Positions 46,917 through 63,066 of a DNA stretch of 64,000 nucleotides are shown here, one piece after another. The stretch is from Clostridiales bacterium (GTDB taxonomy: Bacteria; Bacillota; Clostridia; Christensenellales; Borkfalkiaceae), in contig SVHG01000008.1 in the NCBI GenBank assembly GCA_015055965.1, positions 1-64,000 on the forward strand. The letters are read 5' to 3'. The translations under genes and the position numbers were made by a program. The notes under the pieces were generated by a model, which did not search any database, was not told the origin of the DNA, and saw only the letters and a program-made list of their open reading frames with translations. How positions within the stretch are numbered: position 1 is the first letter of the stretch; every line of letters begins with the position of its first letter.

Positions 46917-47208
46917 TAAATAAAATTGCAAAACGAATTTTGTTCAAAATTCATATTATTTGTAAAAAGCTTAATTATTTTGCTTAATTTTAAAGGGTAA
47001 AAAACTAAAAATTTTTAAAAGCGCGCACTAAAAAATATTATTAATAAATTTTCTTTATTTTATAAATTCTATTGTGATTTTTTAATTGCGTTGTATAATC
47101 TTATTATTAAATATACAGCTATATCGCAACGAGTAGTTGTTTTTACTTCTTAAAAAATTTAACCGTTATTTATGTGACCTCGCCTTAAAAAAACAAAACT
47201 CCCAAGCC

Positions 47209-47577
47209 ATAGCGTGATGCTCTTAACGGAGCATTCACGCTAAACGATGTTTGCCCTCACGGGCAAATGATGTTGCCTGCGGCAGTGATGTTCACTGCGT
47301 GAATGATGTTGTGCCTTCGGCACAGTGGGCAAACATCACATCATTGCGAGCTTGTATTTGCGTAGCAAATGGCGAGCAACATCATTATGCGGAGCATAAC
47401 ATCACTTTTGCGTCAGCAAAAACATCACTAATAGAAAAAAGAGAGGACATTTCGGCTACTCACCGATTTGTTCTCTCTTTATGTTTGTATAAGGGTCTGG
47501 GCTTAGCCCACATTTGCATTTGACCAGTCAAATGCGATGCTTGCACTTTTGTCAAATTGTTAATTCTCCGCTAAGGA
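47209..47577 (+). repeat. hairpin-ladder element, copy A (369 bp)
   Basis: Starts with a two-tier hairpin (TAGCGTG/CACGCTA and TGCTC/GAGCA, 47210-47242). Hairpins TGCCC/GGGCA, GCC/GGC, TTCAC/GTGAA-like and GTGCC/GGCAC follow, separated by TGATGTT. Then come TTTGC/GCAAA, TATGC/GCATA and TTTTGC/GCAAAA hairpins separated by AACATCA. A two-tier hairpin with AGAGAGGACA (47440-47478), GGGCT/AGCCC and a GCATTTG stem (47516-47535) end it at CTCCGCTAAGGA. The copy at 62689-63057 is nearly identical in reverse. It sits inside what looks like a split terminator (AAAACTCC...GGAGTTTT). The frame 47251-47523 is not considered coding. Confidence 0.85.
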
Positions 47578-47670
47578 CGTCATCCTCTTACTTAGGAGTT
47601 TTTATTTTTGTTTTATTTAATCACGTCACGTTTAGAGATTTAATAACCGCCAAAAGCTTTATTTTAAAAA

Positions 47671-48678
47671 TTATCTTCTGTTAATACGCAAACGAGCAAG
47701 TAATTTTTCATTTCCTGCAACCGCGCCACCGCCAACTGCAACTGCGTAAGCAGGCTCTGCGCATACGTTTGCTCTAATACCCATATTAAAACGGAAGTAT
47801 TCTTCTAAGCCGATAAACTTGGAAGTTCCACCCGCAAAATAAACCCCTTCCCTTCTGATATCCGCAGAAATTTCTGCAGGAAGCTTGGCCATAACCATAC
47901 CGGCAAGCTCAAAAATCTTATCGAAGAAGCCCTTAACAACGGGATAAATATCAGCAGAGCTAACCGTAATAGCCCTAGGCTTGCCCGTAATAATATCTCT
48001 ACCGTTAACTACGGTGGTAGTATCGTCCTTATTGAGCAAGCTACCAACTTGAATTTTTAAACGCTCTGCGGTTAGTCTGCCAATCTTAAGCTCAAAGCTT
48101 TCTTCCACAAAATCAATAAGCATGTTATCAAGACTCTTACCGCCAATATTTACGCTTATACCGGAAATTACACCACCTAAAGAAACGGTTGCAATATTAG
48201 TTGTTCCACCGCCGATATCAATAATGAAGCAGGGATTACTATCCGTTAAATGCACACCCGCGCCAATGGCTGCTAAAACGGGGGATTCTACGAAGTGTAT
48301 AGAGAAAACGTCACAGTCGTTTAAAACCTTTTCAAATCTCTTAATGGTAGCGTTATCTGCCCCGCAAGGAACTGCAAAAAGCACGGAAGGTCTTCTACCC
48401 AAGCGCTTTAAGGTAACCTTGTTTAAAAAGTTTTCTATCATAAGCTCGGCAGATTCTTCCTCCTGAATAGCCCCTTCAAATACGGGCGAGGTAACAACCG
48501 TTCCGTCTACCGTTTTGCCTATTAAATTTTTAGCATCTGCGCCAATAGCCTTAACCTTTTTTCTACCGGTTTCGCTAATAGCAATAACGCTGGGCTCAGA
48601 TAGCACCACGCCCGCGCCAATTTGATATATCTTGGTTACGGAAGAACCTAAGTCTATTGATAAGGTTGGTAATTTCAT
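47671..48678 (-). CDS. mreB: MreB-like actin homologue
   Basis: 335-residue bacterial actin. It has the phosphate-1 loop (IDLGSSVTKIY), phosphate-2 (FIIDIGGGTTNIATV) and adenosine motif (GVYFAGGTSKFIGL). It organises cell-wall elongation under the membrane. No mreC or mreD is adjacent, and the sequence is somewhat divergent (TGRKKVKAIGADAKNLIGK), so an Mbl- or MreBH-type paralogue is possible. It precedes maf, as in many Firmicutes. Separated from spo0A by the hairpin element. Confidence 0.9.
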   Translation of the reverse strand: MKLPTLSIDLGSSVTKIYQIGAGVVLSEPSVIAISETGRKKVKAIGADAKNLIGKTVDGTVVTSPVFEGAIQEEESAELMIENFLNKVTLKRLGRRPSVLFAVPCGADNATIKRFEKVLNDCDVFSIHFVESPVLAAIGAGVHLTDSNPCFIIDIGGGTTNIATVSLGGVISGISVNIGGKSLDNMLIDFVEESFELKIGRLTAERLKIQVGSLLNKDDTTTVVNGRDIITGKPRAITVSSADIYPVVKGFFDKIFELAGMVMAKLPAEISADIRREGVYFAGGTSKFIGLEEYFRFNMGIRANVCAEPAYAVAVGGGAVAGNEKLLARLRINRR

Positions 48679-48710
48679 AGCTTTTCCCCTTGTAAAATAG
48701 TTGCTTTTGT

Positions 48711-48740
48711 GTTAATAATCGCGCTATAGCCTAACTTTTA
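48711..48740 (-). repeat. dispersed CGATTA motif, copy
   Basis: On the minus strand AAAAGTTAGG then CTATAGCGCGATTATTAAC. It includes the stop codon of maf, so it lies in the maf-mreB junction. Confidence 0.6.
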
Positions 48741-49291
48741 AAACCAAACTCCTTTAAAAGTCTTTCAAAAACCTCCGTGGGAAAGCCCACGATATTGTTA
48801 TAGCTACCCTTAGTTTCTTTAACTAAGCCGTAACCGTCCTGTATGCCGTATCCGCCGGCTTTATCTAGCCCTAAACCGCTTTTTACGTAAGCTTGCTTGG
48901 TTTCTTCAGGAAGCTCGTTAAAGGTAACTAAGGACTCGTCTGCGCCAAACACCTGCTTTTGCGCGCTTAAAAAAGCATAGCCGGTGTATACCACGTGCGT
49001 TTTGCCGGAAAGCTTGGTTAGCATTGAATATTCTTCGTTATCGTCGGCAGGCTTTTGCAATATTTCATTGCCTAAAACAACGATAGTATCCGCGCCGATA
49101 ACCGCCGAATCTTGGTGCTTATTAAATATTTCATACGCCTTTGCCTTAGCAATACTCATTACGATTTCTTTAGGCGAAAGACTTTCATCAACCACTTCGT
49201 TGCCAACGGCGGGTATAATTTCAAATTCAACCCCCAAAGCAGAAAGAAGCTCCCTTCTTCTTGGAGATTTGCTTGCTAAAATTAGTTTCAT
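48731..49291 (-). CDS. maf: Maf-family nucleotide pyrophosphatase
   Basis: 186 residues. The Maf signature SKSPRRRELL at residues 8-17, ADTIVVLG and the RLSGKTH-like LTKLSGKTHVVYTG stretch are present. Maf proteins hydrolyse modified or canonical NTPs and influence septum formation. It lies 52 bp before mreB on the same strand, the common maf-mreB pairing, so both act in growth and division. Confidence 0.95.
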   Translation of the reverse strand: MKLILASKSPRRRELLSALGVEFEIIPAVGNEVVDESLSPKEIVMSIAKAKAYEIFNKHQDSAVIGADTIVVLGNEILQKPADDNEEYSMLTKLSGKTHVVYTGYAFLSAQKQVFGADESLVTFNELPEETKQAYVKSGLGLDKAGGYGIQDGYGLVKETKGSYNNIVGFPTEVFERLLKEFGFKS

Positions 49292-49470
49292 TTTAATTAC
49301 AATCCAACTTTAATTATTTAATATTATACCCTATAATTTGCCTTTTGTAAATCTTTTTTTGCGCTTTTACTTGCAAAATCACCACTAAAAATAACATTTT
49401 TTAATTTATAAATTAAAAACTCACTTAATAAGCGTTTTATAAAGGCATATCAGCTTTCTTTTTTAATTTT

Positions 49471-49499
49471 GCATACAAAAGCATTTTGGGAGCATAATA
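49471..49499 (+). promoter_or_regulatory. sigma-G-like promoter
   Basis: GCATA (49471-49475), 17 bp spacer and CATAATA (49493-49499) match the forespore sigma-G (and partly sigma-F) consensus. It lies 22 bp before the ATG of the 30-residue ORF. Confidence 0.55.
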
Positions 49500-49521
49500 A
49501 ATTGTGCAAGGAGGTAATATT

Positions 49522-49614
49522 ATGAGTACTACTAAACAAACTAAGACTTCTAACAAGAAGACTCAAAACAAAACACAAAACACTTCTAAGCAGTCTACTA
49601 AAGACTGTAAGTAA
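49522..49614 (+). CDS. 30-residue Lys/Thr/Asn/Gln-rich small protein
   Basis: Too short for usual gene calling, but with a perfect AAGGAGG 7 nt before the ATG and a terminator after it. The sequence starts STTKQTKTSNKKTQ and ends STKDCK: hydrophilic, basic, disordered. It resembles minor small acid-soluble or other tiny spore proteins in composition only. The sigma-G-like promoter supports forespore expression. Function is unknown; the single Cys near the C-terminus could crosslink. Confidence 0.65.
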   Translation: MSTTKQTKTSNKKTQNKTQNTSKQSTKDCK

Positions 49615-49619
49615 TTAAG

Positions 49620-49642
49620 GCGTTAAAGTAAACGCTTTTTGC
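49620..49642 (+). terminator. terminator after the 30-residue ORF
   Basis: GCGTT, loop AAAGTA, AACGC, then TTTTTG, 7 bp past the stop codon. Confidence 0.55.
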
Positions 49643-49683
49643 TAACTACGGCAATTTGCCTTAATATTACAAAGGAGAAAATT

Positions 49684-49824
49684 ATGAAAAAGAAAAATAA
49701 AGGAAACAAGAAGATTATTCTTCCACCGCCTATGACCTCCCCCTTTGACCCGCTTGGCAGTTATACGGGGACTTATTTAACGGGCTTTTATGAAGAACCC
49801 GTGCAAGACGTAGACGACCTTTAA
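49684..49824 (+). CDS. 46-residue conserved-looking small protein
   Basis: The longer frame begins at 49639, but the ATG at 49684 has AAAGGAGAAA just before it. A basic N-terminus (KKKNKGNKK) leads into IILPPPMTSPFDPLGSYTGT and an acidic end (EEPVQDVDDL). The central DPLGSYTG block looks like a conserved motif of small clostridial proteins, as I recall it. Function unknown; sporulation is possible from the neighbour. No signal or helix. Confidence 0.65.
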   Translation: MKKKNKGNKKIILPPPMTSPFDPLGSYTGTYLTGFYEEPVQDVDDL

Positions 49825-50202
49825 AAACGCCTTTAGTTACCTAACGGGCCTTATTTACGCTTGAGTATAACACCTTTTTATAATTAAAAAAGTAAAAAAC
49901 AAGCGTTAATCGCCTTATAGAGTGACTTTTAATAAAAAACAAAGGGCGTTAAAAAAGAGCAGATTGATTTCTGCTCTTTTTTTGCTTATTTTTAAATATG
50001 CCATTAACCTTTAAATTTTTTTTAATTTTATAAAGATTATTACAAAATTAACAGTAGCGATTTTTAATTTTTTTTGCAACCTAAAGGTTATTGCAAATTT
50101 CGACTAAAAGCTTATACATATCATAAAATTCGATAAGCTTTAATATATTAAAATAAAAGAAGTGGTGAGCTTTATGCTTTACTAATTAAACCTTCTTTTA
50201 CA
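49825..50202. other. intergenic region
   Basis: Contains a CGATTA motif (49901-49930), a clear terminator (AAAGAGCAGA/TCTGCTCTTT plus T-run, 49957-49987), and an inverted repeat AAAGCTTAT/ATAAGCTTT (50107-50115 and 50133-50141). Otherwise AT-rich with nothing recognised. Confidence 0.5.
49901..49930 (-). repeat. dispersed CGATTA motif, copy
   Basis: On the minus strand AAAAGTCACT then CTATAAGGCGATTAACGC. Confidence 0.6.
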
Positions 50203-51246
50203 ATGGATTTTTTTATGAGCGTTATCACCGTTAAAACAATAATTTTAAAGCCTTCTAGCAAGGGAAGTAATAATCTTACTAATGGGGGCGGAATTTTAAA
50301 GATTGATGCTTTAAAAAAACAAGCCACCCTTTCCCTTCTTTCGTTAAGCCACGATAACGGTAAAGAATGGTTACTTGTTCTTTACTGCGAAGAAAGGGGT
50401 TTTTACAACTTTAAAATTAACCCTTCGTTAAAAAAACAGGAGTTTTCATTTTGCAAAGAGCTTATTGATTGTAAAGGGGTAACCGCCGTTATAATTGATG
50501 CAAGCTTAAAAGAACCGGCCCCCGTTTTACAAGGAAGCTTTGGTGAAAGCGCAGTTGATTTTAAGGACCTAACGGAATATGCGAAGAGCGTTAAAAACGA
50601 GGAAGAAGATATTATTGCAACGAAGCAGGCTAACGCGCCTTGGACAAATGAAAGCGAGCAAACCGCTTACCACCAAGCCAACGAAGAAAAATTAGCCAAA
50701 AACCAAAAGATAGAAAATACTGATTATAACGACGAGGCTATTGCCGAAAGCAATTATTTTTTAAAGGACGATAAGGAACAAGAAAATGCAACCCTTCATA
50801 ACCAAAATGACGGAACTGAACACTCAAATAGCAACCAAAGCACGCAAGAAGAAAATTGCCATTCTTCACAGGGATATGAAGCTTCGCCTTGCGATACTCA
50901 ATGCCAAAAAGAGCCCGAATATTATTCCTCAATAAAGGATAAACTGTTGCCCCTTTTTGAAAAATACCCACCTATAAGCGCGTTAACGGCTATTATACCT
51001 TGCTCTAGCTGGGTTAAAATACCGTACGGCGAAAACAAGCATTACGCCGTGGGAACGGTTAAAGAAAACAACGTAGTTAAATATTTATGCTATGGTGTAC
51101 CCGGTGTATACGGCGTAAAACCAAAGGGGTTTGAGAGCTATTCTTACTTTATCCCCCTTAGTCTTTTTGATTTACTTGGCGACGGCTACTGGTGCGTTTT
51201 TCAGGAAGCGGAAAGCGGAAAAAGAGTTTACTGCAACCCAAATTAA
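50203..51246 (+). CDS. two-domain protein of unknown function with acidic linker
   Basis: 347 residues, or 343 if the in-frame ATG at 50215 is used; neither start has a strong Shine-Dalgarno site. The N-terminal domain (about 1-120) is mixed alpha/beta. Residues about 125-245 are low-complexity and acidic with many Asn and Gln. The C-terminal domain (about 245-347) contains LFEKYPPISAL, IPCSSWVKIPY, YLCYGVPGVYG and YFIPLSLF, which I recall as a widespread unassigned clostridial domain. Cytoplasmic. Function unknown. Confidence 0.75.
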   Translation: MDFFMSVITVKTIILKPSSKGSNNLTNGGGILKIDALKKQATLSLLSLSHDNGKEWLLVLYCEERGFYNFKINPSLKKQEFSFCKELIDCKGVTAVIIDASLKEPAPVLQGSFGESAVDFKDLTEYAKSVKNEEEDIIATKQANAPWTNESEQTAYHQANEEKLAKNQKIENTDYNDEAIAESNYFLKDDKEQENATLHNQNDGTEHSNSNQSTQEENCHSSQGYEASPCDTQCQKEPEYYSSIKDKLLPLFEKYPPISALTAIIPCSSWVKIPYGENKHYAVGTVKENNVVKYLCYGVPGVYGVKPKGFESYSYFIPLSLFDLLGDGYWCVFQEAESGKRVYCNPN

Positions 51247-51334
51247 GCACTTATTGATTTAAGCGGTGAAATCGGTTGTTATTTTTTGCGTTTAATGTTA
51301 TAATATCCTCACTTCTTTAAAAAGAGAGGTTGTT

Positions 51335-51598
51335 ATGGTAAAGCTTTGGACAAGAACAGTTAAAGACAATAAAACAATTTTAAAACACGATTTCGTTCGC
51401 GAAAAAGATATGGAATGGGCAGATTTTTTTGACTACGTTCGCGAAATTTGCCACGAAATGGATCTTCCCACCCCCGTAATTTTAAAAACTCATCTTTTTA
51501 ATTTTGCAAAGTTTAACTACGTTCGCTTTTTGCCAAGTGACTTTATAGAACAGGTTGACTTTGATTATTTAATAGTGGAAAACGTAAACAAGGGCTAA
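51335..51598 (+). CDS. small protein of unknown function
   Basis: 87 residues, soluble, acidic and aromatic-rich (EWADFFDYVREICHEMDLPTP). It has its own promoter (TTGTTA, 17 bp, TATAAT ending at about 51304) and AGAGG before the ATG, so it is a credible gene. The length and style fit a conserved clostridial hypothetical; nothing more can be said. Confidence 0.65.
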   Translation: MVKLWTRTVKDNKTILKHDFVREKDMEWADFFDYVREICHEMDLPTPVILKTHLFNFAKFNYVRFLPSDFIEQVDFDYLIVENVNKG

Positions 51599-51698
51599 CC
51601 TTTTTATTTGATGTATAATTTTAGTAAAATACGGAAAAACTAATTTATAAGTGGATTAACCTCGTGCGGTTAGTCAATTATTTATTAGGAGGTATTTT

Positions 51699-51908
51699 AT
51701 GAAAATTGCAAGCGTAATTTCAATGATTTTAGTCATAGTAGGCGCTATCGTTTGGCTACTCGTTGGCTTATTTGATTTTAATCTTGTAGCAATGCTTTTT
51801 GGTGATGCATCTATGGTAAGTCGCGTAATCTACTCTTTAGTAGGTCTTGCAGGGCTATTTACCATTTTCTTTATTTTTGCTTACCGTCCCTTCAAAACTG
51901 TACCCTAA
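51699..51908 (+). CDS. DUF378-like small membrane protein
   Basis: 69 residues with two helices (about 5-25 and 42-62) separated by LFDFNLVAMLFG, the pattern of DUF378/YuzA proteins. TAGGAGG precedes the ATG. Function of the family is unknown. A terminator follows at 51961. Confidence 0.8.
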   Translation: MKIASVISMILVIVGAIVWLLVGLFDFNLVAMLFGDASMVSRVIYSLVGLAGLFTIFFIFAYRPFKTVP

Positions 51909-51960
51909 GGTTTAGCGAAGGTTAAAAGCAATTAAAATTTACTAACAAGTATAAAAATGA

Positions 51961-51989
51961 AAGCGGACCAAGTTCGCTTTTATTTTTTT
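51961..51989 (+). terminator. terminator after the DUF378-like gene
   Basis: AAAGCG, loop GACCAAGTT, CGCTTT, then TATTTTTTT. Confidence 0.75.
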
Positions 51990-52050
51990 GTGCTTTTTAA
52001 GGTTATATTTTGCTATTTTTCAATTATTTGCTTTTATTTAATTAAAAGCG

Positions 52051-52079
52051 TTTACATTTTTTACCTTTTTAGGTATAAT
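52051..52079 (+). promoter_or_regulatory. tRNA-Arg promoter
   Basis: TTTACA (52051-52056), 17 bp spacer, TATAAT (52074-52079). Confidence 0.75.
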
Positions 52080-52123
52080 AATTAGGCTACTTTGCTTATT
52101 TAAAAGCAATTTTATAAAAAGGT

Positions 52124-52201
52124 GCACCCGTAGCTCAGTTGGATTAGAGCGTGAGATTCCGATTCTCAAGGCCGCAGGTTCGATCCCTGTCGGGTGCTCC
52201 A
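52124..52201 (+). tRNA. tRNA-Arg(CCG)
   Basis: 78 nt with encoded CCA. Acceptor GCACCCG pairs with CGGGTGC. Anticodon stem TGAGA/TCTCA with loop TTCCGAT gives CCG. Confidence 0.94.
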
Positions 52202-52204
52202 ACA

Positions 52205-52242
52205 AAAAACGCGTTTTTGTAAGTATGCAAAACGCGTTTTTT
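52205..52242 (+). terminator. tRNA-Arg terminator
   Basis: AAAAAACGCG and CGCGTTTTTT pair 3 bp past the CCA end. The hairpin array starts directly after it. Confidence 0.75.
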
Positions 52243-52419
52243 GAATGATGTTTACATACTGTAAATGATGTTAGCTTCGCCAATGATGACGGCTTCGCCT
52301 AATGATGCGCGCCATTCGGCTCATGAGTAAACATCTTATCATTGCGCCCTAAAAAGGCGCTGTATCATTTTGAATAAAATGAAAAACATCATATTACCGC
52401 AGGTAATGCATCATTTGAC
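52243..52419. repeat. hairpin-ladder array 3, next to the four-helix-bundle gene
   Basis: Left half: ATGATG spacers between the hairpins TTTACA/TGTAAA, TTAGC-TTCGCCAA, GGC/GCC and GCC/GGC. Right half: ATCAT or CATCAT spacers between GCGCC/GGCGC, TTTGA-TAAAATG and ATTACC/GGTAAT. The last spacer, CATCATT, runs into TTGACA of the next gene's promoter, so array and gene look like one unit. Confidence 0.7.
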
Positions 52420-52443
52420 ACGCTATTTCTTTTATGTTATAAT
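52415..52443 (+). promoter_or_regulatory. promoter of the four-helix-bundle gene
   Basis: Consensus TTGACA (52415-52420), 17 bp spacer, TATAAT (52438-52443), directly abutting the end of the hairpin array. Confidence 0.85.
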
Positions 52444-52461
52444 GATAAAAGCAGGTGTGTT

Positions 52462-52815
52462 ATGAAAGAAAATAAACTCATTGACCTATCAATGGAATTT
52501 TCCGTTGAAATTATAAATTTAGTAAAGATTCTAAAATCTAATCATGAGAGCATTATTGCTAATCAAATTGGCAGAAGCGGAACTTCTATCGGCGCTAATA
52601 TTCACGAAGCACAATATGCGCAAGGCACAAAAGATTTTGTATCCAAATTTGAAATTGCCCTTAAAGAGGCAAGTGAAACGGGATATTGGCTTGAATTACT
52701 ATATAAAACAAAGTATATTGATGAAGAAACCTTTAAAAGATTAAATTCTAAATGTACTTCTTTAAGAGTTATGCTAATTGCTTCCTGTAAAACGGCAAAG
52801 AATAATACGAAATAA
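52462..52815 (+). CDS. four-helix-bundle protein (S23/bAvd family)
   Basis: 117 residues, matching in length and pattern the four-helix-bundle family encoded in 23S rRNA intervening sequences and related to the Avd accessory protein of diversity-generating retroelements. Conserved blocks are IGRSGTSIGANIHEAQ and ALKEASETGYWLELL. The family is basic, oligomeric and thought to bind nucleic acid; its role outside retroelements is unknown. There is no reverse transcriptase or rRNA nearby. A consensus promoter begins where the hairpin array ends, which suggests the protein belongs to that element. AGGTG precedes the ATG. Confidence 0.88.
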   Translation: MKENKLIDLSMEFSVEIINLVKILKSNHESIIANQIGRSGTSIGANIHEAQYAQGTKDFVSKFEIALKEASETGYWLELLYKTKYIDEETFKRLNSKCTSLRVMLIASCKTAKNNTK

Positions 52816-52829
52816 TAAATAGGGGTTTT

Positions 52830-53948
52830 ATGAAATACTCAAAAAAGATTAAAAAGCATTTTGAATATATTAGTAATAAGGACTACTTGCAAGACTGCGC
52901 AAGCGACCTTTCTACCCTTAAATGCGCGGTAGCGTTATTAGAGGGGGCTTGCTGTCACTTTTCCACGGGGGAAAGTCCTTTAAAAAGAGTAAACGAGCTT
53001 GTTAAAACGGTAAACAAGGTGTTTACAAAGCAAGCAACTATTGATGGCGACGAGCAAATTAACCTTTACGGAAATATTTTAACGGCACTTTGCGCTTATA
53101 AAAAATGTACCGCGCTTAACGAAGCAGACGAGTTAATTGACGCTTGCGTTACCCCACTTTTAAACGCCCTGTTTACCCGTATAGATGCGCTTATTGAAGA
53201 AAATTCCTTACTTCCTGCAAGAAGCTTAAGCGCCCTAAACGGCATAGCGGACTTTTACGCTATTACCCGCGATAAGGACGCGCTTTTACTTTTTAATAAG
53301 GTTATAACCAACTTAAATAAGCTTAACTTTAATAATTCGCAAGATAACTGTTACGATTATTTATGCTTTATTTCGGGCGCGTTAAAATTAGCGCAAATGA
53401 GCGATAATATTGCCGTTTACGAGCCTATAGCGCGACTTTTTGATAATTTGTGCGTAAAGGCGCAAAGCCTTAATTACGGCGTTGCTATAAGCTTTATTAA
53501 CAAAAAGGAATGCTCTAGCGCGGCAACGGCAAAATCTTTAGAGGTAGCACTTACCTTTTACGCCTTACTGCAGGATGAAAGATATAAATCGCTTGCAAGA
53601 AGAATTTGGTTTAACGGATTACAGTTTTGCCAAAGAGAAAAGGGACAAACGGGCGCAGATACCTTTACCACGGAAGACGCCCCCAACCTTAAGGTTAGCC
53701 GTTACGAGGTTAAGCAAATAGTTACCCCACTTTACGCAATAGCCTTAAAGTGCTATGCGGCAAACAAAGAGCTGTTTGAAGAAAGCGGAGAGCTTTTTAA
53801 AGATAGAAGAGGCAGATATTTTATTGGCGACAAGATGTTCGCGCGTGACGTAAGCGGATTTTTTGGCCGTGATTTAATAGAAATCCCAACCCTTACCGCA
53901 TTCGACAGTCAAACGGCAATCCAGCTGGACTTTAAGCTAACCTTTTAA
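52830..53948 (+). CDS. alpha-helical protein, possibly alpha/alpha-toroid
   Basis: 372 residues, not recognised. It is helix-rich with recurrent motifs spaced like an (alpha/alpha) barrel (SLSALNGIADFYAITRDKDALLLF; SLEVALTFYALLQDERYKSLAR), similar in style to GH127-like or lanthionine-cyclase-like folds, but without confident catalytic residues. No signal peptide. It overlaps nothing and ends 1 bp before bioY, so both probably share a transcript. The relation to biotin uptake is unclear. Confidence 0.65.
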   Translation: MKYSKKIKKHFEYISNKDYLQDCASDLSTLKCAVALLEGACCHFSTGESPLKRVNELVKTVNKVFTKQATIDGDEQINLYGNILTALCAYKKCTALNEADELIDACVTPLLNALFTRIDALIEENSLLPARSLSALNGIADFYAITRDKDALLLFNKVITNLNKLNFNNSQDNCYDYLCFISGALKLAQMSDNIAVYEPIARLFDNLCVKAQSLNYGVAISFINKKECSSAATAKSLEVALTFYALLQDERYKSLARRIWFNGLQFCQREKGQTGADTFTTEDAPNLKVSRYEVKQIVTPLYAIALKCYAANKELFEESGELFKDRRGRYFIGDKMFARDVSGFFGRDLIEIPTLTAFDSQTAIQLDFKLTF

Positions 53949-53949
53949 T

Positions 53950-54492
53950 ATGAAAGCAAACGGAAGCAAAATAGCGCTTTGCGGACTTTATTTAGCGCTT
54001 TTAACCATTTCTGCAAAAATACAAATTCCATCCCCCATAGTTCCCTTTACCCTGCTAACGGCATGCTTTTTACTTTGCGTTTTCACCCTAAACGGATTCG
54101 CCCCCTTTTTTACCGTTGGCGCGTATATTTTTGCAGGGCTTATAGGGCTACCACTTTTTGCAAGTGGCGGTGGATTTTCTTACCTATTAAACCCGTCGTT
54201 TGGCTACCTTTTAGGCTTTTTAATTGCAAGCTTAGTTAAGTGCTTATTAGTTAAAAAAAGGCTAACCGATTACAAGCATTTACTGCTTATTTCATTAGCC
54301 CTTTTATTTATAATTCACTTAATAGGAAACCTTTACGTTTATATTATTTTAACCACACATTTATCCTTTAAAATAACCTTACTGCAAAGCTTTATTTCTT
54401 ACGGATTACTCTTTATTCCCATAGACCTTGCGTGGGCGCTAATTTGTCCGCTTGTAATAAAGCGAATAAACAGCCACGCAAACGTTAAATAA
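53950..54492 (+). CDS. bioY: biotin transporter substrate-binding subunit
   Basis: 180-residue S component of an ECF importer, with six predicted helices. The BioY signature GLPLFASGGGFSYLLNPSFGYLLGF is clear, plus the early block ISAKIQIPSPIVPFTLLT. It captures biotin and works with the shared EcfAA'T module, which is not in the window. The start codon lies 1 bp after the preceding stop. A terminator follows at 54503. Confidence 0.94.
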   Translation: MKANGSKIALCGLYLALLTISAKIQIPSPIVPFTLLTACFLLCVFTLNGFAPFFTVGAYIFAGLIGLPLFASGGGFSYLLNPSFGYLLGFLIASLVKCLLVKKRLTDYKHLLLISLALLFIIHLIGNLYVYIILTTHLSFKITLLQSFISYGLLFIPIDLAWALICPLVIKRINSHANVK

Positions 54493-54502
54493 CAACAATT
54501 AG

Positions 54503-54538
54503 AAATCGCGTTAATCAATCTATAACGCGATTTTTTTT
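54503..54538. terminator. bioY terminator overlapping a CGATTA-like motif
   Basis: AAATCGCGTT and AACGCGATTT form a perfect 10 bp stem followed by more T. The loop side contains a diverged copy of the dispersed motif (on the minus strand TTATAGATTGATTAACGC, 54503-54532). Confidence 0.8.
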
Positions 54539-54691
54539 ATTTATCAATATTGAAAGTTCAACAAAAATTGATATAACAACTTTTTATTTTTGTGCCCTTT
54601 TTTTAAGCCTTTTAAGGTTGATTTAAAGGAAGAATATTGCTATAATTTTAATAATAAAATTAAAGCAATATCACAAAAAAAGAGGAAAAAA

Positions 54692-55429: not shown

Positions 55430-55491
55430 AACAAATTAATTTAACCACACGAAATTCTTTTTTATGTTTTTCTTCCAATAAAAAAGTAACG

Positions 55492-55520
55492 AAAACCCCG
55501 TTCATTACGAACGGGGTTTT
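55492..55520. terminator. bidirectional terminator between convergent genes
   Basis: AAAACCCCGTTC, ATTAC, GAACGGGGTTTT: a perfect 12 bp stem serving the acyltransferase gene and the lipoprotein operon. Confidence 0.9.
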
Positions 55521-55547
55521 GCCGTTATATTAACTGTTTTTTACAAA

Positions 55548-57806
55548 TTACTGTAACGCTCTGTAATCGCCAAGAACGATACCCATGTAACCTGCGCTAC
55601 CTTGTTGAGCGTAGAATAGATTTAGATATCCGCTATCGCTAGCAATAGGAAGAGCTAAATGTTCGCCGGCTAAGAAGTTAACGTGAGTCATAGTGGGTAA
55701 TCCGGTTAAGGTGTAAACCAGAGGAGTTGCGCCACCGGTTGTGGAGTCTTGACCGCCGTAAGCAATAATACCGGCTTCAGTTGCGCCTTGGAAAATGGGC
55801 GCGCCCTTTTTGCTAAGACCGGCTAGGAAGGGAGCGGTATACGCGCCTTCAAAATCAAGCTTATGGTTTTCGCCAATTTCTACTTTACCTAAAATAGGAT
55901 CAAAAGTCATACCTTCTGCATCACCTGACTTAATTACGATCATAAGGTTTAGTAGGCTTTGAGTGTTACCGCCTTCGTCAGTAGTCTTGGTAACGAAGGT
56001 TCTCTTAAAGCTATTAAAGATAGCATCCGTTGCCATGATTTGGCCAACTGCTGATTGAGCGTTAAATTCTGCAAACCAAGCCTCCTGACCGGTTACGTAA
56101 GAAGCAACCTCTGAAGCTTCGTCGATTACGATATGGCTAGTCCAACCGCCGCTACCCGTTCTACCTGCGGTATTATCATCAGGGGTAACGTGATCGGCAA
56201 TAATTGCAGGACCGCCTGCGCCGTAAATTCTACTGTTCTTGATTTTTACAAGACCACCCCAAATGTAAAGAAGTGAGTTGTAAGAGTCTTCAAAGATACA
56301 GCTATCAATAACGAATTCGTGACCGGTTGCGTTTTGAGAAACGAAGTTATTAATATACCAGCTCTTAGAAACCATATTGTAGGTAGTACCCTTTGTTAAT
56401 TCAAACTTAGCTAAGATAAGACCGCCGGAGCTTTCAACGGTTTCCTGTCTGTTTAGGTTACCAATAAGGTTAACGTTGTTCATATGGAAGTCTTCCGTTG
56501 TGGTTGTAGAGTCTGCTGAAGCATTACCTCTAACGCGGAATAATGAAGCGTGGCTTACGATTGAAGTGGGAAGACGTTCTAGGTTATCGTCGCCATCCTC
56601 TTTCATAACGTAAGGAACAGCGCTTGCATCAAGAGTGAAGTAGTTACCTTCAAAGGTAAATTGACCGTTATCGCCAAGGTGTCTATCCAAAATGAATGAA
56701 TAATCCTTTAAAGAGCCTTGTAAACGAGCCTTCTTTTCATCAGATAAGCCTGCGAAATGATCTGCATCCCTTACTTCGTCGTAAATGTGGCAAGAGGGAA
56801 TATCGCTTGCAGTTAAAGCAATATTATTGTGAAGAACTAAAGCGCTAACTGTTGAAGCGTCAACGGTTATCCCCTTTTCTGCTCTGAATGCAGCAACATC
56901 TGCGTTATTGTTATCCCAAAGAAGAAGATCTGCTGCGGTATATACGTTATAACCATCTATAACCTTGAATTCTAAAGAGTTGCTTAGTTCAGCAATAACT
57001 TCAGCATCTTCACCGGCATCTTCTAATAATCTGGGGTAAACTACAAGCTTGAATGAATTACCGATTGCGCTTTCAGTAAAGTCGAATGAGGCGTTTAGTG
57101 CATCTACTTCTACGTAGGTAGCCATATCGCTAACCTCTACATATTCGCCTTCGGTTAAAACGTAAAGAGTAGCAACGATTTCTACTTCACCGGGAGCGTC
57201 AAAGTATAAAAGCTTGCCGTCTGCGTCGTAAGCAGCAACGATAGGACTGAATGAGAACGCACCGTCATCACCAACTAAGTAACCTTGAGTTTTATCCTTA
57301 AAGTTAGAGGTTGCGCCCTTGTTAGAAGCAAAAGCTGAAATAGAAGCGGGAACGGTTACAGAGTCTGCCCAGCAGTATACTCTTAAGCCTACTTCTACGC
57401 TAAATCCGTTATATTCGATTTCTGCAGTAGCAGCGCCAAGCTTAGAAGTATCACAGGTAACGGTTAAAGCTGACTTATCTAATTCTGCGTAAGTAGCTTC
57501 TTTAGAAGTACCGTCTGAATAAGAAAGCTCAAGAACTAATTCTTCAAATTCGGCGTCTGCGCCAAGCTCAAGATTGGTAACACCTGAAAGGTATTCAACG
57601 CCGGTAAGAACAGCCTGTTCTTCATTTCCACTAGAAGAGCTGTCATTTTCTGAAGAGTTAGAGTCTTCCGTAGATGAATCTTCTATTACGGGGGAAGAGT
57701 CTTGAGATTGAGATTCAGACGTACTGTCTGCATCGTCACAAGCAACTGCAAAAGATAAAGATAATGCAGTTAAAAGTGAAAGTAAAAGTAACCAAAACTT
57801 TTTCAT
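55548..57806 (-). CDS. large surface lipoprotein, Ig-like plus beta-helix-like
   Basis: 752 residues with a lipoprotein signal (FAVACDD, Cys23) and a Ser/Glu/Asp-rich linker (about 25-65). A Big_3-like Ig domain (VLTGVEYLSGVTNLELGADA) and a second beta domain follow. The middle (about 290-560) has repeated NNV, NNF and KNS strands typical of a right-handed beta-helix (HMNNVNLIG, YINNFVSQNATG, KIKNSRIYG). No catalytic residues are evident. It is the last gene of the four-gene ABC operon, so it could be an exported cargo or a surface partner of that transporter. Confidence 0.75.
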   Translation of the reverse strand: MKKFWLLLLSLLTALSLSFAVACDDADSTSESQSQDSSPVIEDSSTEDSNSSENDSSSSGNEEQAVLTGVEYLSGVTNLELGADAEFEELVLELSYSDGTSKEATYAELDKSALTVTCDTSKLGAATAEIEYNGFSVEVGLRVYCWADSVTVPASISAFASNKGATSNFKDKTQGYLVGDDGAFSFSPIVAAYDADGKLLYFDAPGEVEIVATLYVLTEGEYVEVSDMATYVEVDALNASFDFTESAIGNSFKLVVYPRLLEDAGEDAEVIAELSNSLEFKVIDGYNVYTAADLLLWDNNNADVAAFRAEKGITVDASTVSALVLHNNIALTASDIPSCHIYDEVRDADHFAGLSDEKKARLQGSLKDYSFILDRHLGDNGQFTFEGNYFTLDASAVPYVMKEDGDDNLERLPTSIVSHASLFRVRGNASADSTTTTEDFHMNNVNLIGNLNRQETVESSGGLILAKFELTKGTTYNMVSKSWYINNFVSQNATGHEFVIDSCIFEDSYNSLLYIWGGLVKIKNSRIYGAGGPAIIADHVTPDDNTAGRTGSGGWTSHIVIDEASEVASYVTGQEAWFAEFNAQSAVGQIMATDAIFNSFKRTFVTKTTDEGGNTQSLLNLMIVIKSGDAEGMTFDPILGKVEIGENHKLDFEGAYTAPFLAGLSKKGAPIFQGATEAGIIAYGGQDSTTGGATPLVYTLTGLPTMTHVNFLAGEHLALPIASDSGYLNLFYAQQGSAGYMGIVLGDYRALQ

Positions 57807-57865
57807 TTTGTTATAACCTCCGTTATAATTTATCTTTAATTTAATTTTTAACTATTGTTTTAAGC

Positions 57866-58321
57866 TTAGGTAAATCTAACGCTTATATAAACGCTATCTG
57901 AAAGTGATGCGTTTGCCTTAGCCGTTACGGTAACGGTTGCAGCAACTATAGGTCTACCCGAGGTAGGTCTTGTGAACACCAGCTGCCCCGCTTCGTTAAC
58001 CGTAATATTAGGATTACTGGGGTCAAAGCTGTAAACTACAGATTTATCAGTAGCGTCGTCCGGACCGATATTATATCTTAAATCAAAAACTAAAACGTCT
58101 TCGCCGGTTCTGATTTGAGAAAAATACTTATATTGAGCGCCCCCTTCCTTTTCGCCCACTTGATAATCTTCTACCTTATCTAAATAAGCAAGCTGAGTTA
58201 TCACTAAAGAAGTAGGCTTAATATTGGGTGCGTAAACTCTTACGTTTAAGCCGATAGTTCCTACTATACCGATAGAAAGAACGTAAACTGCAATTAAAAT
58301 TAGTATAACCGATTTTTTCAT
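57866..58321 (-). CDS. secreted or membrane-anchored Ig-like protein
   Basis: 151 residues: one N-terminal helix or signal (VILILIAVYVLSIGIVGTIG) and an extracellular beta domain with PTSGRPIVAATVTVTAKA strands, resembling a bacterial Ig-like fold. No lipobox. It lies 12 bp before the permease gene, in the same operon. Role unknown; possibly a transporter accessory subunit. Confidence 0.65.
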   Translation of the reverse strand: MKKSVILILIAVYVLSIGIVGTIGLNVRVYAPNIKPTSLVITQLAYLDKVEDYQVGEKEGGAQYKYFSQIRTGEDVLVFDLRYNIGPDDATDKSVVYSFDPSNPNITVNEAGQLVFTRPTSGRPIVAATVTVTAKANASLSDSVYISVRFT

Positions 58322-58333
58322 TTACAATACCCC

Positions 58334-59971
58334 CTATTTTTCGTAAAAATAAACTTTAATTTTAGTTACGAACATGTATATAAGAGCTACCATAAATACT
58401 ATGCCGATTAAACAGAGCTTAACGCAAGCGGTGGTTACCCCTTCCGGTATAATTACGTAAGAGAAGAATGCATATATTGCAGAAGCAATAAACGCCATAA
58501 CCGTTGCGGACGTTTCGTTGGGGTTATCGTCTACGTTGCCGGTGGTTGCATACGCTTCGTTTTGGGGATTCATTAAATCCGCCGTAGCGCAGAAGAATAC
58601 GTGCCCCCATTGCATGCCGATTAAACCGATTGCAAGTAAGGTTATTTCTACCCCGCTTAGTGAAACGAATCTAGAGAATACTATTACGCTTGCTATAATT
58701 GATATTGCAGAGCATATTAGCATGGGAATTACCTTTATAACGAGGGGAATAAGTGGGGTTAAGGGGAAGGTTTTTCTTAAGTAAGAAACTCTACCGTCAC
58801 GACTGTATAGCGTTGCAATAACCGCGTTAGACGCCATCAAGGGTAATATCATTATTAATAGGTTGAAGGAATAGGTCATATACTTTCCTTCGGTATCGGT
58901 ATCCATTGCCACGTACACCTTATTTAAAAGGAATATTAAAACGGGAACGGCAAGATACATTATGATAAAGGTTGCAGTAATACCCGAACGAAGAAGTGAG
59001 GAAAGCTCCGTTTTAAAGAAGGTTGCAATAACTCCTCTTTTCTTGTTGGGATTGGTTTTACTAATAAGCTTTTTCTCAAACTCAAAGGATTTACTCATCA
59101 TGCCGAAGAATAACGGGCGTGATAGGAAGAATACCAATGCGCTAAGAAGGACTATTATGCCAACCATTATGCCAAAATAAAGAAGTACGTTTAGATGCAG
59201 AATAGAATACTCAAAGCCCGTAGGATATCCCACTAACATACTTACTAAAAGGTTAACCGGGTAAACGTGATCCCCGCACCATTTTAATCCTTCTAAAACC
59301 ATTCTTTCAATAGTTCCGCGTTGTTCAATAAGATTAATTTTATCGGGAATTAAAGAAATTAGGCTAACTGAAGCAAATACCGCAGCCGCAGCAACCGCAG
59401 CGTAGGTTAAAAGCTTAACAACGGGTACTTTTCTAAAGAATCTGTAAATAAACATTGCAGGAATAGAAAGCACCGCACCAATTAAAACGGGAAGAGCGGA
59501 TATAAAGATGAAGGCTATAAATAACCAAACGGTATGAAGCCCAATCATTTTTGAAAATACTTCGTAACCTAAGAAAATGGGAATGGTTAAGAATAAGCTT
59601 CGCTTAAGCTCGAAGAAGTAATATATGATAAGCTTAGAAACGAAAATCATATTCGCGTTAACGGGGAAGGTAATTAGCACCTTATTATCGTCTGCAAAAT
59701 ACAAATTCTTCATTAAGCCAACCGTGCAGGATATCGTTGAAAGAATAAATATTAACCCAAATATAAAAACCATTATATTGGGCGGAACTCTACCGCTTGT
59801 AAACAGTAACATCGGTAGAAGCATAAATACTACGTAAGATACCGCCGTAACGATGCCGAACTTCAAAATCGTGAAAACTATTTTAGAAATAGTTCTTTGC
59901 TTTGAAGAAAGAAAGCTGAAATCTAGCTTATCTTTAAGCTGCATCATTACGAGCGCTTTAAGATGTTTCAT
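58334..59971 (-). CDS. ABC-2-type exporter permease
   Basis: 545 residues with about twelve membrane helices. The arrangement and the N-terminal cytoplasmic start (LKALVMMQLKDKLDFSFLSS) fit ABC-2 permeases of the putative exporter class. It pairs with the ATPase encoded 13 bp upstream. The substrate is unknown; the co-operonic lipoproteins suggest a role in the envelope. Confidence 0.82.
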   Translation of the reverse strand: MKHLKALVMMQLKDKLDFSFLSSKQRTISKIVFTILKFGIVTAVSYVVFMLLPMLLFTSGRVPPNIMVFIFGLIFILSTISCTVGLMKNLYFADDNKVLITFPVNANMIFVSKLIIYYFFELKRSLFLTIPIFLGYEVFSKMIGLHTVWLFIAFIFISALPVLIGAVLSIPAMFIYRFFRKVPVVKLLTYAAVAAAAVFASVSLISLIPDKINLIEQRGTIERMVLEGLKWCGDHVYPVNLLVSMLVGYPTGFEYSILHLNVLLYFGIMVGIIVLLSALVFFLSRPLFFGMMSKSFEFEKKLISKTNPNKKRGVIATFFKTELSSLLRSGITATFIIMYLAVPVLIFLLNKVYVAMDTDTEGKYMTYSFNLLIMILPLMASNAVIATLYSRDGRVSYLRKTFPLTPLIPLVIKVIPMLICSAISIIASVIVFSRFVSLSGVEITLLAIGLIGMQWGHVFFCATADLMNPQNEAYATTGNVDDNPNETSATVMAFIASAIYAFFSYVIIPEGVTTACVKLCLIGIVFMVALIYMFVTKIKVYFYEK

Positions 59972-59984
59972 GTTTTAGCTCTCC

Positions 59985-62189
59985 TTATTTATTGCTTGCA
60001 AGCACCTTTGCTGCAAACTCTTCGTCGTTAATGGTCTTTAAATAGAATTCTTCTAAGGGGCATTCTTCTTCTACCTCTGCAATAGTCTTACAGCACATAA
60101 TATTACCCTTTTTGATTATTGCAATACGGTCACAAATACGTTCAACGACGTCTATAATATGGCTAGAGAAGAATACGATATTGCCGGCTTCCGCGTGGCG
60201 ACGCATACATTCCTTAACCTGGAAAATACTGTTAGGATCTAAGCCGGTTAAGGGCTCGTCTAGTATCCAAAGCTTGGGATTGTGAACGAGCGCAGCCATA
60301 ATGGTTATCTTTTGCTTCATACCGTGTGAGTAGGTCTTCATAGAGTTATCAAAAGATCCTTCAAGCTCAAATAACGCAACCATTTCGTTTATTCTTGCAG
60401 TTCTATCTTCAACTGATACGTCGTATATATCTGCAATATAGTTAATGTATTCACGGCCGGTTAGCTTTTCGTATAAAGCGTAATGGTCGGGAACGTAACC
60501 GATTTGCGCTTTTGCAGAGCGAGGTTGGGTTGCGCAGTCAAATCCGCAAATCTCAATCGCTCCTTCAGTTATGGGTTGAATGCCTACTATGCTTTTAATA
60601 ATGGTAGACTTACCTGCGCCGTTAGGCCCTAAGAAGCCAAAGATTTCACCACCGTTTACGGTAAGACAAGCGTTCTTTACCGCGTATATTTTGCTGGTTG
60701 CATAGCGTTTAGAAAAGTTTTTAAGTTCAAGTTTTATTCCTGCATCGGGATTCATAGGTTCTTCAATACTCCTTCCGTCTAATTTTGCCTGCAGAGCAAG
60801 CTTATCTAATCTTATCTTTCTTTTACGCACGAGCATGTCGTAATGCGCGTCCGCTAAAATGAAAAATTCACTGTAAACAAACCAAATACCAAACGCAATA
60901 CCTACGTATACGATAAAGAACAGTAGTTGGTAGATGGGGTGGAACTCTAGGCTATGACCGGCTATGTTAATACTCGCCGTAATTTTGAATAAATCCTCTG
61001 CCCATTTGCCGAACTTATCGGGAATAAAGTCACTGTTTAGGAAGAAGAAGTCTACGTCGTGCCCCATTGAGGTGAATAACGCGTTAGCAAGTAACGCCAC
61101 GATAAAATAGAATAAAAAGCCTGCCATTGAATAGTAGAATTGCTTAATTTTTGGTCTTTCAAAAATCTTAAGCGCTACCAATAAAAGGGGCATAAAGAAT
61201 GCGGGATAGTGGTTAACCCAGAAGTTTACTAACGACCATTCAAATATTCTTGCTTCTTCGTAGTTGGGCATTATCATTGCTAAAAACGCGCCCATTACGT
61301 TTATAAAATAGGTGAAATAGAATAATTTCTTCGCTCTTAACAGTAAGCACACGGGAACTATGAACATTGCCGTATTACATAGGTGTAAGGGCCAATACCA
61401 AGGCTGTAAGAAGGTCGTATATTTAAATCTGGTACAGTAGCTTAGTAAAAGGGTTATACTTAGAAAGGTCATTGCAAACCTTCTAACCTCTAAATCCCTT
61501 TCTCTAAGCGCAAAGTAAATAATTACGGGAATTATAAAGCCTGCGTATAAGAACATTCTGTGGGTTGAAGTGAAATCGTCCACCACGAATGCGGCAGGAC
61601 CTCTGCCGAAAAGCACCTGTAATCCGTAAGAGGGGAAGGAGCTAAGCACCATAAAGAATAGGGCGATTATTAAAAGCCACCACTTTCCTTCCGGCTTATT
61701 CCACTTAAAGTCCTTTAGCCAGTAGGTTAAGCTTAAGAATAATCCAAACGCAACCTCTATACAATGCATTATCGCAGAGAAGCCGTAGTCAGAAAATTCA
61801 GGGCCCATTAAAAGATCAACCGTGTGTGGAACTAATACGCTTGCAAGTATATACGCGGGTAAGCAAAAATACTTTGCAAACAGCTTTAAAAAGTCTATCT
61901 TGTAAAAGGGGGCAAGCGCTAATACGCAAAAGCTAACTTGGGTAAACGCCACGCTTAAAAGAACCAACACCGTTACGAATTTTGAAGATAACGGCGTTTG
62001 ATCTAAACCAAACACGTTATCTATTGGGTACTCAACGTAAAAATAATAGCGGGCAACGTATATTGCAACGAAAATAAACGCTAATACCTTTGGTATTAAA
62101 GTGCTATTTCTGCCCTTTTCGTTTTTAAAAAGCAACGCTCCTACACCCGCCAATATGGCAAGCGAGCCGTAAGTGATTAAATATTGCAT
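59985..62189 (-). CDS. YwaF-like membrane domain fused to an ABC ATPase
   Basis: 734 residues. The N-terminal 450 contain about twelve helices. Residues about 205-440 resemble the YwaF/TMEM164 family (PWYWPLHLCNTAMFIVP with conserved His and Cys; GAFLAMIMPNY). A linker leads to an ABC ATPase (about 485-734): Walker A GPNGAGKST (521-529), signature YSHGMKQK (620-627), Walker B LWILDEP (640-646), then SSHIIDVVERICDRI. Two such parts in one chain is unusual. First gene of the operon, with the ABC-2 permease 13 bp downstream. Confidence 0.85.
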   Translation of the reverse strand: MQYLITYGSLAILAGVGALLFKNEKGRNSTLIPKVLAFIFVAIYVARYYFYVEYPIDNVFGLDQTPLSSKFVTVLVLLSVAFTQVSFCVLALAPFYKIDFLKLFAKYFCLPAYILASVLVPHTVDLLMGPEFSDYGFSAIMHCIEVAFGLFLSLTYWLKDFKWNKPEGKWWLLIIALFFMVLSSFPSYGLQVLFGRGPAAFVVDDFTSTHRMFLYAGFIIPVIIYFALRERDLEVRRFAMTFLSITLLLSYCTRFKYTTFLQPWYWPLHLCNTAMFIVPVCLLLRAKKLFYFTYFINVMGAFLAMIMPNYEEARIFEWSLVNFWVNHYPAFFMPLLLVALKIFERPKIKQFYYSMAGFLFYFIVALLANALFTSMGHDVDFFFLNSDFIPDKFGKWAEDLFKITASINIAGHSLEFHPIYQLLFFIVYVGIAFGIWFVYSEFFILADAHYDMLVRKRKIRLDKLALQAKLDGRSIEEPMNPDAGIKLELKNFSKRYATSKIYAVKNACLTVNGGEIFGFLGPNGAGKSTIIKSIVGIQPITEGAIEICGFDCATQPRSAKAQIGYVPDHYALYEKLTGREYINYIADIYDVSVEDRTARINEMVALFELEGSFDNSMKTYSHGMKQKITIMAALVHNPKLWILDEPLTGLDPNSIFQVKECMRRHAEAGNIVFFSSHIIDVVERICDRIAIIKKGNIMCCKTIAEVEEECPLEEFYLKTINDEEFAAKVLASNK

Positions 62190-62236
62190 AACTTAAAAAA
62201 AACTGATAATCTCCTATTATAATTTTATCTTTCATA

Positions 62237-62266
62237 ATATTATCACAATAATTCACAAATTGTCAA
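62237..62266 (-). promoter_or_regulatory. promoter of the ABC exporter operon
   Basis: On the minus strand TTGACA (62261-62266), 18 bp spacer, TAATAT (62237-62242). CACAAT and ATTGTG half-sites flank the -35 box and may be an operator. Confidence 0.65.
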
Positions 62267-62302
62267 CGAATTGTGGACTGTTTTATAATAATATTATAAA
62301 AA

Positions 62303-62332
62303 TCAAGCAATAACCGACTTGCGGTTACCCTT
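62303..62332 (-). repeat. weak copy of the CGATTA motif
   Basis: On the minus strand AAGGGTAACCGCAAGTCGGTT then ATTGC. The CTATA part is lost, so this is a doubtful member. Confidence 0.3.
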
Positions 62333-62615
62333 TTTTTATTATTTGTTTTCACGCGCTTTTATTTATCCGTTTTGCTTAAGCCAAAGCTTGCTTTTATAAT
62401 GACAAAAAAGATTTAGCTGAGCTGCTTTTTTTGCGCGATTTTGCGTCTATAAAATATTTCTTATGTATTATACAATCAAAAATAAAAAATTCCTTATAAA
62501 TTTTTAACTTTTTTCAACTATTTATTTGCTTTACCTTAAAAAATGCGTTTTTTCTTTTTAAATTTATGTTTAGATTTAAAGCGTTTTTAAGGAAATTTTT
62601 TAAAAGAAACAACTT

Positions 62616-62645
62616 AAAAAGGTATGCTATAGGTCGATTATCGCG
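62616..62645 (+). repeat. dispersed CGATTA motif, copy
   Basis: AAAAAGGTATG then CTATAGGTCGATTATCGCG: one of the best matches, 43 bp from hairpin element copy B. Confidence 0.65.
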
Positions 62646-62675
62646 CTTTTTATAAACAAAAACACCCGCTTGTAA

Positions 62676-62686
62676 ATTAAGGCGGG
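62676..62686. repeat. left 11 bp direct repeat of element copy B
   Basis: ATTAAGGCGGG, repeated at 63056-63066 on the other side of the element: a candidate target-site duplication. The site is in a CCCGC/GCGGG terminator-like stem. Confidence 0.6.
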
Positions 62687-62688
62687 TA

Positions 62689-63057
62689 TCCTTAGCGGAG
62701 AATTTACACTTTGACAAAAGTGCAAGCATCGCATTTGTCTGGACAAATGCAAAAGGGCTAAGCCCAAACCCTTAATACAAGCAGAAAGAGAGAACAAATC
62801 GGCTTAAATCCCGAAATGTCCTCTCTTTTTTCTGTTAGTGATGTTTTTGCTGTCGCAAAAGTGATGTTATGCTCCGCATAATAATGTTGCTCGCCATTTG
62901 CTACGCAAATACAAGCTCGCAATGATGTGATGTTTGCCCACTGTGCCGAAGGCACAACATCATTCACGCAGTGAACATCACTGCCGTAGGCAACATCATT
63001 TGCCCGCAAGGGCAAACATCGTTTAGCGTGAATGCTCCGTTAAGAGCATCACGCTAT
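62689..63057 (-). repeat. hairpin-ladder element, copy B (369 bp)
   Basis: Reverse-oriented near-identical partner of 47209-47577 with equal length and the same ends. Most differences fall in loops (TCAC to TTGC; GCCTGCGGC to GCCTACGGC). One is a compensatory pair: in the GCATTTG stem (62731-62750) an A-T pair of copy A is a T-A pair here. The frame 62758-63015 shares its artificial protein with copy A's frame and is not considered coding. Confidence 0.85.
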
Positions 63058-63066
63058 TAAGGCGGG
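63056..63066. repeat. right 11 bp direct repeat of element copy B
   Basis: ATTAAGGCGGG, identical to 62676-62686. One or two bases overlap the element end, so the exact duplication length is 9-11 bp. Confidence 0.6.

Follow-up and report, generated by a model that had tools for sequence, protein, structure and literature searches.

Two nearly identical ladders of short hairpins, each 369 bases long, occur in inverted orientation in a 64,000-nucleotide stretch of a Clostridiales bacterium genome (contig SVHG01000008.1, positions 1 to 64,000; hereafter the window), raising the question of what these elements are and how they came to lie there. An original prediction, made from the sequence alone, had described them as structured elements selected for their fold rather than for a protein, and as belonging to no named family. 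Its coordinates were confirmed: copy A, at 47209-47577 (+), and copy B, at 62689-63057 (-), are 94% identical, although the unit extends from near 47211 to near 47585, slightly past the right end first given. The prediction had missed that the elements sit in terminator loops, that they have inverted ends and a 2-bp duplication, and that gene-carrying relatives and more than 100 further loci exist. We consider it probable that the 369-bp element belongs, as the form without a gene, to a family of non-autonomous mobile insertion cassettes that is targeted to terminators and moved in trans. The ladder does not stand alone as an RNA of unknown layout.

Placement in terminator loops

The left flanks of the elements ended with an A-run and an arm, and the right flanks began with the complementary arm followed by a T-run, the arms varying between sites. 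Exactly complementary arms, 7 nt or longer and containing at least three G or C, were found around 42 of the 55 copies, compared with 4% of mismatched flank pairs, in a test that leaves out the A- and T-runs and was defined after the data were seen. A flank score including these runs separated less sharply (39/55 copies above the 95th percentile). Left-flank bases -3 and -2 were identical to right-flank bases +4 and +5 in 51 and 49 of the 55 copies (z = 7.5 and 5.6, respectively), and this 2-bp duplication was usually located at the centre of the terminator hairpin. Joining the flanks with a single copy of the dinucleotide gave near-perfect hairpins, such as AAAAAGGACGAGAATTCTCGTCCTTTTTG, and the terminator of an orthologous gene in another genus was uninterrupted. 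The neighbouring genes were convergent in 27 of 47 cases (background 24%) and divergent in one of 47.

Some loci departed from the complete form. At L108:527 and L190:6203, the left hairpin alone was present within the terminator loop, and the arms extended it into one long, perfect hairpin. In L209, L116 and L205, the right end was absent, yet matching terminator arms closed on both sides, as if insertion or later deletion respected the arms. L137, L146 and L167 were composites, with the left hairpin at both ends, or with one element near or within another.

The ends of the element are imperfect inverted repeats, with GYGTGATNYTCTTAACGGAG within a hairpin on the left and, read inwards, GGGTGATGTYCTTAGCGGAG on the right. 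Insertion would take place in the middle of an intrinsic terminator hairpin and in most cases duplicate 2 bp, leaving the interrupted arms on either side. That the elements move is inferred from sequence, and from metagenome-assembled genomes (MAGs) only; a putative transposase or recombinase, provided in trans, would act on the ends and on the palindromic target, possibly when extruded or single-stranded. The ladder might perhaps be the structure recognised, or might compact the insert and thereby let the host terminator still close.

Gene-carrying relatives

Some relatives combine this left hairpin, ladder and right end with one or two cargo genes, preceded by a promoter-like sequence and a leader and followed by a terminator. 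In five loci (L142, L174, L180, L183 and L191), the left hairpin and ladder were followed by a promoter-like sequence (-10 box TATAAT or close), a gene and a terminator, with a conserved leader between promoter-like sequence and gene in four of them. The family right end was present in L142, L174, L180 and L183, and was not recognised in L191, a locus with one IVP and one NUDIX gene. Host terminator arms surrounded L142, L174, L183 and L191; the matching arm of L180 lay about 330 bp past the right end. In copy A, the segment at 47493-47537 was similar by eye to the leader ahead of cargo genes in other dialects (the spacer variants described below).

The promoter-leader segment gave 2 to 32 matches per genome in 20 of the 28 carrier genomes, part of which may be leader-like pieces of gene-less elements, because gene-less TGATATT elements contain an inverted version of it. 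It was matched in 9 of 391 genomes of the class, mostly weakly.

The loci fetched yielded 57 distinct cassettes, whose 50 cargo proteins showed essentially no relationship to one another. Seven of these were GNAT acetyltransferases; MatE, Imm33, EamA, NUDIX, HAD, HTH_3, MazG, HIT, DUF3885 and DUF7660 had a single member each, and most of the remaining proteins had no family match. No transposase or integrase family was present among the matches listed for the 50 proteins (25 of 29 families), and PADLOC matches were few. One cassette, in L394, combined a MatE-family transporter with a second frame resembling a MarR-type regulator. Since relatives with the same ends carry unrelated small genes, the family looks like an undescribed gene-cassette system.

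Structure and covariation of the ladder

The ordered hairpins and the complementary TGATGTT and AACATCA spacers were present as predicted. The spaced pattern TGATGTT-N4..24-TGATGTT occurred nine times in the window, versus 0.01 expected, and copy A folded as a single strand with z = -8.6 (RNA) and -9.2 (DNA), no shuffle being equally good. The compensatory A-T to T-A change noticed between the copies was real, A47523-T47528 in copy A facing T62743-A62738 in copy B in the same stem; across 25 homologues, this pair was AU in 16 and UA in 7.

RNAalifold, applied to the alignment of the 25 homologues only, paired the spacers into a rod (columns 62-68/226-232, 78-86/203-211 and 98-107/178-187), with side-arm hairpins and pairing between both ends. 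With one hairpin added to this structure, paired cells reached 98.0%; double-changed cells numbered 141, versus 47 in shuffles and at most 16 with slid partners, a control which flatters the structure because the latter came from the same alignment. For the rod alone, there were 52 double changes, versus 23 in shuffles.

The spacer dialects, scored with their complements in 106 loci, give more independent support for the rod than the slid-partner control. Six were distinguished (TGATGTT, TGAAGTT, TGATATT, TGAAATC, TTATGA and TCGATATG), and the two halves matched in 68 of the 68 elements with at least two spacer copies per side, none being mixed; as the copies are related, this represents at least five or six independent dialect switches, not 68. 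A seventh dialect, TGAATTG/CAATTCA, was found in L181. Structural selection and a spacer-spacer rod with side-arm hairpins, both proposed in the original prediction, are thus supported. A protein-coding reading of the ladder was rejected, as it too had anticipated, since frames of 85-90 aa were disrupted among homologues by gaps of lengths not divisible by three.

Family size and distribution

The source genome contained about eight copies of the element, with identity down to about 72% over partial lengths. Matches were found in 10 of 61 genomes, including the source genome; one of these, from another family, had a copy 95% identical. Copies with 94-98% identity occupied unrelated sites and extended across genomes from different families. 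A left-end pattern scan of named genomes yielded at least 116 stretches; among the matches listed, all came from Clostridia, Clostridiales or Oscillospiraceae MAGs, and those listed whose titles give a source came from ruminant guts. Allowing up to two mismatches, the left hairpin matched 5 of the 396 genomes searched in the order, which belong to five families, and gave no control match. The distribution is patchy. A phage or plasmid element was also considered and rejected: similar DNA was absent from the phages and plasmids searched, and viral matches to the end patterns were coding coincidences.

Weighing of the proposed trans-mobilised cassette and its alternatives

Several observations weigh against a cassette family moved in trans. 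No transposase or recombinase was found between family ends, in searches that did not include serine and tyrosine recombinases. The candidates considered as partners were not supported: the Y1 transposase domain PF01797 (IS200/IS605, REP-type) was absent from the source genome, which is 96% complete; PF01548 (DEDD), expected of an IS110 or bridge-RNA partner, was absent from G000, G001, G002, G035 and G048; the single IS30 gene of the source genome had no such ends; and HTH_38/IS30 did not track the carriers, as HTH_38 was not found in G001, G035 and G048. With regard to the target, the exact 7-nt arm was missing in 13 of the 55 copies. Direct repeats longer than the usual 2 bp were present at copy B (62676-63066, about 11 bp), L160 (about 6 bp) and L049 (about 19 bp), and were made up of the left terminator arm. 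Many gene cassettes also had another left end (CTCTCTGCATTCTTAGCGGAGAAAT, a short hairpin) and no ladder; they kept the same right end and terminator placement, with arms in 17 members of a set of 25 in which some gene-less elements are included, and the two kinds are joined by a common end core and by the ladder-plus-gene cases.

Evidence for recent movement was also limited. The only clear empty site is the one in another genus; closer empty sites for the C19 copy, in G001 and G002, were rejected because the gene matched and the intergenic sequence differed. No strain-level presence/absence polymorphism of the copies was seen, and, all genomes being MAGs, binning errors are possible. Finally, the flanking dinucleotide clustered on the tree of the 55 copies, with 14 changes versus 19.3 in within-dialect shuffles, which exceeds what free target duplication predicts.

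The clustering would also be compatible with recombination at a shared dinucleotide in place of fresh duplication. Conservative site-specific recombination, as in serine-recombinase or bridge-RNA systems, with all else as in the trans-mobilised cassette, is an unlikely but serious alternative. It would account for a dinucleotide inherited along the element tree above chance, with AT on the left in each of the six elements closely related to the window copies; against this, the dinucleotide changed at least 14 times among the 55 copies and the carriers had no IS110 transposase (other recombinases were not searched).

Less probable is a selfish insert acting at the RNA level, comparable to the intervening sequences of 23S rRNA, which would lie in a hairpin loop, fold out of the transcript and spread via an intermediate of RNA or single-stranded DNA. 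In its favour, ladders precede IVP genes both in L191 and in the window, and the terminator arms remained paired in the modelled transcript, at 0.94 with the element versus 0.89 with shuffled inserts (a small effect, from an energy model only). However, elements were found in both orientations, the 2-bp duplication and the inverted ends point to a DNA transposase, the cargo matches listed include no reverse transcriptase, and IVP cargo occurred in only a few cases.

The strong covariation, together with the Rfam listing of Gut-1 as a likely noncoding RNA, would also suit a structured noncoding RNA family (Gut-1 sensu lato) that functions in trans and whose terminator placement is secondary. 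We regard this as improbable, slightly more so than the RNA-level insert. The wobble pairs leaned towards the + strand (20 versus 11), but not significantly (p = 0.15); strand energies did not differ beyond the shuffle range, copy A had no promoter-like site, and elements occurred in both orientations relative to genes. Such an RNA would leave the inverted ends, the dinucleotide repeat and the terminator placement unexplained. A host-beneficial extension of the terminator or 3' end (for RNA stability, for example), spread by descent, is very improbable: it would fit the restriction to gene ends and the paired arms, but the elements are patchy and next to unrelated genes, one orthologous terminator has none, gene-carrying versions exist and the folding effect is small.

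Features of the window

The features of the two copies are given in Table 1.

Table 1. Features of the two element copies and of the adjoining terminators
Feature	Position	Strand	Remark
Left arm of interrupted host terminator (AAAACTCCCAAG), copy A	47195-47206	+	Complementary to 47592-47603 at 11/12 bases
Flanking dinucleotide AT, copy A	47209-47210	+	Place of the family's 2-bp duplication; right-hand copy not preserved here
Copy A, gene-less ladder form of the element	47211-47585	+	
Left terminal hairpin TAGCGTGATGCTC..GAGCATTCACGCTA, copy A	47210-47242	+	Constant part in all dialects
Left half of ladder, copy A	47242-47314	+	Weak Rfam Gut-1 match (37.4 bits), under cut-off; siblings exceed cut-off
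Left spacers TGATGTT, copy A	47268-47274, 47286-47292, 47304-47310	+	Hairpins in between
Right spacers AACATCA, copy A	47378-47384, 47398-47404, 47421-47427	+	Complementary to left spacers
Internal hairpin AAAAAGAGAGGACA..TGTTCTCTCTTT, copy A	47435-47481	+	Covarying helix 13
GGGTCTGGGCTTAGCCC and covarying hairpin (GCATTTGAC..GTCAAATGC), copy A	47493-47537	+	Helix 15
Right end TTCTCCGCTAAGGACGTCATCC, copy A	47564-47585	+	Imperfect inverted repeat of left end
Right arm of interrupted terminator (CTTAGGAGTTTT) and start of T-run, copy A	47592-47603	+	
Copy B of element	62684-63055	-	Right end lost in part
CCCGCCTTAAT, flank of copy B	63056-63066	-	First copy of 11-bp direct repeat
Terminator hairpin ACCCGCCTTAATTTACAAGCGGGT at copy B	62664-62687	-	Contains second copy of the direct repeat (62676-62686)

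A second ladder of the window, with TGATGTT/CATCA spacers (about 52245-52418), was located directly after a tRNA terminator and before a 23S_rRNA_IVP gene (52462-52815); the order ladder, promoter, IVP gene was also found in L191. As its right end was not found, this ladder is a relative by layout and not a proven member. Similar ladders were observed after a tRNA gene terminator at G000:C9:44524 (L009) and after an apparent RNA gene end in L050.

Another dispersed ladder family, at 43918-44096, had the same spacer motif (TGATGTTTGAGTGATACTCAAATGATGTTTTGCTACCGCAAAATGATGTT) beside a ladder with GTATGTAATCA spacers, the two spacers not being complementary. It had about 60 other pattern matches in the source genome and formed tandem arrays of about 123-125 bp at C9:182287 and C19:139923; several contigs ended in it.

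Comparison with known systems

The open-access papers searched yielded no description of terminator-loop cassettes. The closest description is that of mobile insertion cassettes (MICs), such as MIC231A1 of Bacillus cereus and mic-qnrD, which have inverted repeats, a target duplication (2 bp in mic-qnrD) and a passenger gene but no transposase gene, and are mobilised in trans by a related transposase (PMC3913671). The elements described here likewise have imperfect inverted ends, with complementarity of about 12 pairs across 25 sequences; no transposase was present among the cargo matches listed, and gene-less copies carry no gene at all. They also show a 2-bp duplication at the target, although the clustering on the tree casts doubt on its origin. 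The description thus fits save for the trans-acting transposase, for which no partner was found. Unlike MICs, these elements target terminator loops, have a covarying hairpin ladder and many copies per genome, and carry many different cargo genes in one common frame.

The intervening sequences of 23S rRNA are also inserted in hairpin loops, have complementary ends and encode the S23/IVP protein (PMC4990558). Insertion in a hairpin loop, complementary ends and S23/IVP as possible cargo are shared with our elements, which, however, lie in the terminators of many protein genes, not in rRNA, and mostly have other cargo or none.

Varied small accessory cargo, frequent GNATs and strongly folded DNA at the ends also recall integrons. 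Integron gene cassettes comprise many unrelated small accessory genes, commonly GNATs, with strongly folded end DNA, in a tandem array at attI and with an integrase and attC sites; our elements, in contrast, are dispersed single insertions with their own promoter and terminator, and no array was seen. IS30-family elements share the 2-bp duplication and the palindromic target, but the ends found here are not shared by any IS30 transposase.

Lastly, the claim that the ladder has no named family was only partly right: copy A scored 37.4 bits against Rfam Gut-1 (RF01706), below the cut-off of 50, and the siblings L104, L069 and L114 passed it (56.5, 54.9 and 50.1 bits, taken together). In 2010, Gut-1 was listed as a likely noncoding RNA from the human gut only (PMC2864571). 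The left half of the ladder matched the whole model, which spans only three hairpins and their spacers of a 350-1200 bp element; Gut-1 would correspond to this left half. More tentatively, with the chances somewhat below even, these elements could form a separate cassette system of gut Clostridia, in which an enzyme recognises the folded ends (terminal hairpin and covarying ladder) and delivers accessory genes with their own promoter, leader and terminator into terminator loops at little cost to the host, the Gut-1 "RNA" being a piece of the left end. If so, an orphan Rfam family would be explained, mobile genes would be seen to use intrinsic terminators systematically as landing sites, and the accessory genes of gut Clostridia would be joined by a large, uncharacterised pool; the ladder, covarying dialect by dialect, is a structural puzzle open to direct testing.

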